Assembly: GCA_038827615.1 (NCBI GenBank)
Contig: JAWBNK010000001.1
Coordinates: forward strand, 1-64,000
Origin: Thermosphaera sp.
Lineage (GTDB): Archaea > Thermoproteota > Thermoprotei_A > Sulfolobales > Desulfurococcaceae
Length of the DNA stretch: 64,000 nt
Direction of reading: 5' to 3'
Part shown: positions 40,461 to 42,382 of the stretch, piece by piece
Layout of the letters: each line of letters starts with the position of its first letter
Position numbering within the stretch: position 1 is the stretch's first letter
Position numbers and translations under genes: made by a program
Notes under the pieces: model-generated
Database searches by the model: none
What the model saw: only the letters and a program-made list of their open reading frames with translations
Told to the model about the DNA's origin: nothing

Positions 40461-41517
40461 ATGAGCCTCGTTGATAGAGGAGTCGAGTTCATAGACCATA
40501 TTACTCGTAGAGCAGGATACTCTAACAAGTGGATAGTAGTGAGGGATGTCGAGACGGATCCAGCATACGGGAAGCTCCCATACGATAGGGACATCCGCGA
40601 GCACATATCGTACGGCGTGATAAATCTGGACAAACCCCCGGGCCCAACAAGCCACGAGGTCGTTGCATGGGTTAAGAAACTATTCAACCTTGACAAGGCC
40701 GGTCACGGGGGTACCCTAGAGCCCTGCGGGGCGGGGAAACCCCAAGGTGACCGGCGTACTCCCAGTAGGCTTGGACAATAGCACTAAGGTCATCGGCAAC
40801 GTGGTCCATTCCGTCAAGGAGTACGTCATGGTCGTGCAGTTGCATGAAGAAGTTGACTTGAAGAGGCTTGAAGACGCATTAAAGTACTTCACAGGGGAGA
40901 TTTATCAGAGGCCTCCGTTAAGGTCCAGCGTGAAGAGAGTCCTGAGAACTAGGAGGGTGCACGAGATAAGGCTTCTCGACGTTAGGGATAAGTTCGTGCT
41001 CATTAGAGTCTCATGCGACCCCGGCACCTACATGAGGAAGCTCGCACACGATATGGGCCTGTACCTTGGGATCGGCGCTCACATGAGAGAGTTGAGGAGG
41101 ACTAGGACGGGACCCTACAGGGAGGACGAAACCCTCGTTAAACTCCAGGACGTCAGCGATGCTCTATACTTGTGGCGGGCCGAGGGTGATGAGAGGTTGC
41201 TGAGGAAGATAATCCTCCCCGTTGAGACAGCAGTAGCCCACTTGCCCAAGATTATTGTGAACGACCTCGCAGTCGACGCAATAGCTCACGGAGCGAGCCT
41301 CGCGGCCCCAGGTGTTGCAAGGCTCACTGATAACGTTGAACCCGGTTCTACAGTGGCCATATTCACGTTGAAGGGCGAGCTCGTCGCTTTGGCCAAGGCC
41401 TTGAGGAGGGCGGGTGAAATAGCCAGTATGGAGAGAGGAATTGTAGCCAAGACAAAGAGGGTTTTAATGCCCGCCGGCGTCTACCCTAGGTATTGGAAGA
41501 CTAGTGGAAAGGAGTGA
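40461..41517 (+). CDS. cbf5: tRNA/rRNA pseudouridine synthase Cbf5, gene interrupted by a BHB intron
   Basis: Catalytic subunit of archaeal H/ACA RNPs and of tRNA pseudouridine-55 formation. Exon 1 (40461-40719) encodes HISYGVINLDKPPGPTSHEVVAWVKKLF and KAGHGGTL; exon 2 (40739-41517) continues VTGVLPVGLDNSTKVIG, the RPPLRSSVKR motif and the C-terminal PUA domain (KIIVNDLAVDAIAHGASLAAPGV...). Unspliced, the frame shifts after GTLEP and the catalytic Asp is absent. Removing 19 nt (40720-40738) gives CTA GAC CCC AAG, that is GTLDPKVTG, restoring frame and Asp and making a 345-residue protein. Introns in cbf5 are known in Crenarchaeota. ATG 40461; the methyltransferase gene follows after 3 bp. Confidence 0.94.
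40720..40738 (+). other. 19-nt bulge-helix-bulge intron in cbf5 mRNA
   Basis: Intron AGCCCTGCGGGGCGGGGAA. The RNA folds as a canonical splicing-endonuclease substrate: inner hairpin GCCC/GGGC closed by loop TGCG; 3-nt bulge AGA (40718-40720) on the 5' side; 4-bp central helix CCCT/GGGG; 3-nt bulge AAA (40737-40739) on the 3' side. Cutting after the second base of each bulge gives exactly this intron. Further out, GCCGGTCAC (from about 40698) pairs with GTGACCGGC in exon 2. Confidence 0.93.
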
Positions 41518-42104: not shown

Positions 42105-42190
42105 AGCCGGGGTGCCCGAGCGGTCTAAGGGGCTGGCCTTGAGAGCCAGTGGGCATCCAGCCCGCGCGGGTTCAAATCCCGCCCCCGGCG
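42105..42190 (+). tRNA. tRNA-Ser (UGA)
   Basis: Acceptor GCCGGGG/CCCCGGC with G discriminator, anticodon stem CTGGC/GCCAG around loop CTTGAGA (anticodon TGA, reading UCA), long class II variable arm (TGGGCATCCAGCCC region), T arm GCGGG-TTCAAAT-CCCGC. No intron; CCA not encoded. Lies six bases after the methyltransferase stop. Confidence 0.95.
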
Positions 42191-42382
42191 CTTAGTCAGC
42201 CCTGCTAATAGCATGCAATCTTCGAGACTACGTGCAGCCTCTCCAATAGCACGTCTTTGAAACTGTAATCGCGATTTGGACCGTTTTCAATGGGTTATTA
42301 GTTCAGTCGCCGCGAAACGTTCCATTATCCTCGGGCTTAAATCTTGGGCCATGGATAATATATTTGAAATGCTGGTGAATCC

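Follow-up and report, generated by a model that had tools for sequence, protein, structure and literature searches.

The window analysed here, the whole stretch of 64,000 nucleotides (64 kb), comes from a heat-loving archaeon and carries on its forward strand cbf5 (positions 40461–41517), which encodes the RNA-modifying enzyme Cbf5 and which, as read from the sequence, is interrupted by a 19-nt bulge-helix-bulge (BHB) intron of the kind known from tRNA genes, AGCCCTGCGGGGCGGGGAA, at 40720–40738 (Table 1); this 19-nt sequence occurs once in the window. The insert splits the codon of the catalytic Asp87 between its first and second bases (G|AC). Without splicing, the frame opening at the ATG at 40461 runs to ...GTLEPCGAGKPQGDRRTPSRLGQ, departs from the Cbf5 family sequence after GTLEP and meets a stop at 40781; once the intron is removed, a single frame of 345 codons plus stop spans the gene, with GTLDPKVTG intact. 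The preliminary description had put forward both points, namely that the unspliced reading passes through GTLEP and then leaves the family, and that excision of 19 nt restores the frame and the catalytic Asp, and translation bears them out. Indeed, the spliced 345-aa protein scores 446 bits against the NCBIfam Cbf5 equivalog model (cutoff 242), the unspliced halves score 89 and 333 bits with adjoining profile ranges, and the alignment of the spliced protein with solved archaeal Cbf5 is gap-free through GTLDPK. The predicted spliced junction reads CTAGACCCC. Its placement carries a one-base ambiguity, with two equivalent registers, between which 40720–40738 was chosen because of the BHB cut rule. 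A single tRNA gene, tRNA-Ser (TGA), was found in the window, on the same strand at 42106–42191.

Table 1. Parts of the interrupted cbf5 gene and of the predicted RNA structure at its junction
Feature	Position	Strand	Basis
cbf5 exon 1, codons 1–86 and base G of Asp87	40461..40719	+	translation; 106-aa reading matches NCBIfam Cbf5 over residues 23–90
19-nt BHB intron	40720..40738	+	frame restoration; fold; identical position in 120 genomes
cbf5 exon 2, AC of Asp87 to TGA stop	40739..41517	+	translation; NCBIfam Cbf5 match, profile positions 71–321
Extended exon-exon stem, 5′ side (GCCGGUCAC and GGGGU outer helix)	40698..40712	+	fold; all nine outermost pairs
Central helix, 5′ strand CCCU, 4 bp	40714..40717	+	fold; all four pairs in 118/120 relatives
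5′ bulge AG|A, predicted cut after 40719	40718..40720	+	fold; AG|A in 101/114 distinct sequences
Inner stem-loop GCCC-UGCG-GGGC	40721..40732	+	fold; covariation among relatives
Central helix, 3′ strand GGGG	40733..40736	+	fold
3′ bulge AA|A, predicted cut after 40738, in small internal loop	40737..40739	+	fold
Extended exon-exon stem, 3′ side (ACCCC, GUGACCGGC)	40739..40755	+	fold

The RNA around the junction (79 nt) has a minimum-energy fold of −42.3 kcal/mol (z = −3.6), and no shuffled sequence folded equally well. This fold contains a UGCG loop together with the CCCU/GGGG central helix, the AGA 5′ bulge and the GCCC/GGGC inner stem, the last three in agreement with what had been described at the outset as a textbook BHB, a term that does not hold for the 3′ side. 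There, the AAA is not a clean bulge, since the outer GGGGU/ACCCC pairing resumes only beyond an unpaired A that faces AA (alternatively, UA facing AAA). The strict hBHBh′ motif, with two clean 3-nt bulges and helices on either side, is absent, the A at 40713 facing a C and leaving zero canonical outer pairs directly past the 3′ bulge. We accordingly call the structure a relaxed BHB, because its outer (3′) bulge belongs to a small internal loop; the geometry with predicted cuts between the second and third bases of each bulge is otherwise present. Sites of the same geometry occur five times on the forward and six times on the reverse strand of the window. A chance match is nevertheless not the explanation here, since only one such site falls within cbf5 and it coincides with a position conserved in 120 relatives.

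The extended exon-exon stem was considered as additional evidence and set aside. In the window gene it looks striking, with all nine outermost pairs formed, as they are in 22 of the 120 genes that have the intron and in none of the 27 that lack it, but the mean number of these nine pairs formed is 6.48 in intron-bearing genes as compared with 6.70 in intronless genes. We therefore take the stem to be characteristic of a lineage and give it no weight as support for the intron.

The comparison of cbf5 introns in related genomes, suggested in the preliminary description, was carried out across the order: cbf5 was located in 190 of 197 genomes and the junction could be read in 147. An insert lies exactly at G|AY of the Asp codon in 120 of these and is missing from the other 27; the junction within the Asp codon, singled out beforehand as noteworthy, is the standard position of cbf5 introns in Crenarchaeota. 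The 120 inserts are 13–57 nt long and are distributed over the three length classes modulo 3 as 30/51/39. In the nearest genomes the intron measures 19 or 20 nt within the same genus and 16, 21 or 22 nt in a sister genus, lengths that suit Thermosphaera and Desulfurococcus; the window gene thus probably comes from Thermosphaera or a close relative, among the crenarchaeal Desulfurococcaceae. Among 114 dereplicated sequences, a set that leaves out a lineage with 13-nt inserts, the first inner-stem pair is GC in 87, AT in 16, TA in 3 and CG in 1, and is paired in 113, where shuffles reach at most 99; pairs 2–6 likewise exceed all 2000 shuffles, which ignore shared descent. The first four inner pairs are formed in 97–99% of the 114 sequences, each with several pair types. 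Thr and Leu codons provide the exon strand of the central helix, and in counts that ignore relatedness the Thr codon is ACC in 117/120 genes with the intron vs 9/27 without, the Leu codon CTA in 110/120 vs 9/27. These flanking synonymous sites thus appear to be constrained only where the intron is present, kinship not being factored into this reading. Three genomes (G011, G059, G019) seemed to have TGA codons in frame within exon 2; these were considered as signs of second introns but turned out to be ordinary stops at the protein end.

On a quick Cbf5 tree, built on 144 columns and on which gain and loss are indistinguishable, the intronless state requires seven changes, of which at least three are forced by well-supported branches. 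The intron is missing throughout two families, f7 and f8, which are presumably Ignicoccus and Pyrodictiaceae. Intronless genes are also found among intron-bearing kin in family f1 (L026, L029 and L032; genera g9 and g10) and family f5 (L065 and L080; genus g28), while genus g58 of family f6 includes three genomes with the intron and three without (L110, L111, L116). The f1, f5 and f6 cases are apparent losses additional to the two already published, loss being preferred over gain because it is consistent with the published ancestral intron. As for unusual lengths, two members of genus g40 (f5) have 13-nt inserts at the Asp codon (gggtttgggggag in L122, genome G045; aggttttggggag in L130, genome G053), which fall under the published range of 16–44 bp and are essentially devoid of a separate inner stem. 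At the other extreme, inserts of 57, 52 and 47 nt (L051, L117, L089) exceed the published maximum of 44.

It may be asked whether a genuine intron additionally acts as a switch limiting Cbf5 output, for example via splicing efficiency. This was proposed by Yokobori et al. (PMC2738675), and it would be in line with the retention in most lineages of an intron that is removable and has repeatedly been lost. However, the rarity of exact deletion can by itself explain retention, and both the loop and the intron length vary freely, so that we regard such a switch as rather unlikely; slightly less probable still, in our view, is that the intron persists because it regulates how much Cbf5 is produced, control being exerted at its excision by EndA. 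If the intron were such a regulator, the repeated exact losses would represent natural switch-off variants and the 13-nt forms minimal variants. Programmed translational frameshifting or bypass in place of splicing might be suspected from the hairpin that straddles the frame break, and earlier authors, as noted in PMC2738675, took related cases as frameshifting; yet the insert lengths of the relatives would demand shifts of 0, +1 and −1 alike, Glu and extra residues would replace the catalytic Asp, and spliced cDNA has been reported from relatives (PMC2738675), which makes this reading extremely improbable. An error made in sequencing or assembly, or decay of the gene, would account for the broken raw frame but has an equally negligible probability, given that both exons are intact, that the genome has no second cbf5 (one match in G000), and that inserts at the same codon, looked for in independent genomes, were found with covarying structure in 120 of them. 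It is thus the conserved position, together with the mixed length classes, that leads us to reject error, pseudogene and frameshifting.

In the genome from which the window derives, a domain search identified two PF01974 (EndA) genes, at G000:C1:336521 and G000:C2:4555. Judged by eye, one of the two keeps Tyr, His and Lys as candidate catalytic residues, whereas in the other His and Lys are missing. Such a pair is what would be expected of a hetero-oligomeric enzyme composed of a catalytic and a degenerate subunit. RtcB, the joining enzyme of archaeal tRNA splicing, is encoded by one gene.

The interruption is almost certainly the ancestral cbf5 BHB pre-mRNA intron that is cut by EndA and joined, with restoration of the Asp87 codon and of the frame. 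This reading is the one best supported by the comparative data and agrees with PMC2738675; we infer that cutting and ligation take place in this organism. The cbf5 pre-mRNA, carrying the ancestral intron in a 19-nt form, would fold into the relaxed BHB; hetero-oligomeric EndA, with one catalytic and one structural subunit, would cut at AG|A and AA|A; RtcB would presumably join the exons; and ligation would restore the GAC codon and the frame, giving active Cbf5.

The crenarchaeal cbf5 pre-mRNA intron was reportedly described by Watanabe in 2002 and by Yoshinari in 2006. The cbf5 introns of Crenarchaeota, which the preliminary description had named as known, were documented at this Asp-codon junction by Yokobori et al. 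in 2009 (PMC2738675), who list sizes of 16–44 bp (Table 1 of that paper), including 19 bp in Thermosphaera aggregans, 16 in Desulfurococcus mucosus and 21 in D. amylolyticus. Most of the cbf5 introns examined there have an unconventional BHB, ascribed to hetero-oligomeric EndA. Cleavage after the second of the three bases in each bulge, proposed for the window gene from the outset, agrees with the comparative data and with the rule and site given in that paper. The intron is therefore already known, PMC2738675 reporting the junction, the size range and the 19-bp case. Among archaeal mRNA introns it is the classic one, on which papers appeared in 2002–2009, and its small size, initially thought worthy of attention, is unexceptional. 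What is new here, in passing only, is the 13-nt introns of one lineage and the apparent losses beyond the two published, so that the survey modestly extends the history of gain and loss, with several further apparent losses, some of them inside one genus, and introns as short as 13 nt. The window otherwise offers a clean further example of an intron that is better known than any other in archaeal mRNA, and it recalls that cbf5 of these archaea comes out split or truncated from plain ORF callers. Compared with the published crenarchaeal cbf5 intron, it shares the gene, the Asp-codon junction, the relaxed BHB and the cut rule (predicted here), matches the Thermosphaera aggregans listing, with which it was compared by size and whose species may be identical or sister to the present one, and shows no difference that matters. 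With archaeal tRNA and rRNA introns, for which cleavage by EndA has been published, it has the BHB motif in common; however, those introns lie in the anticodon loop or in an rRNA helix, whereas the present one interrupts a codon of an mRNA.
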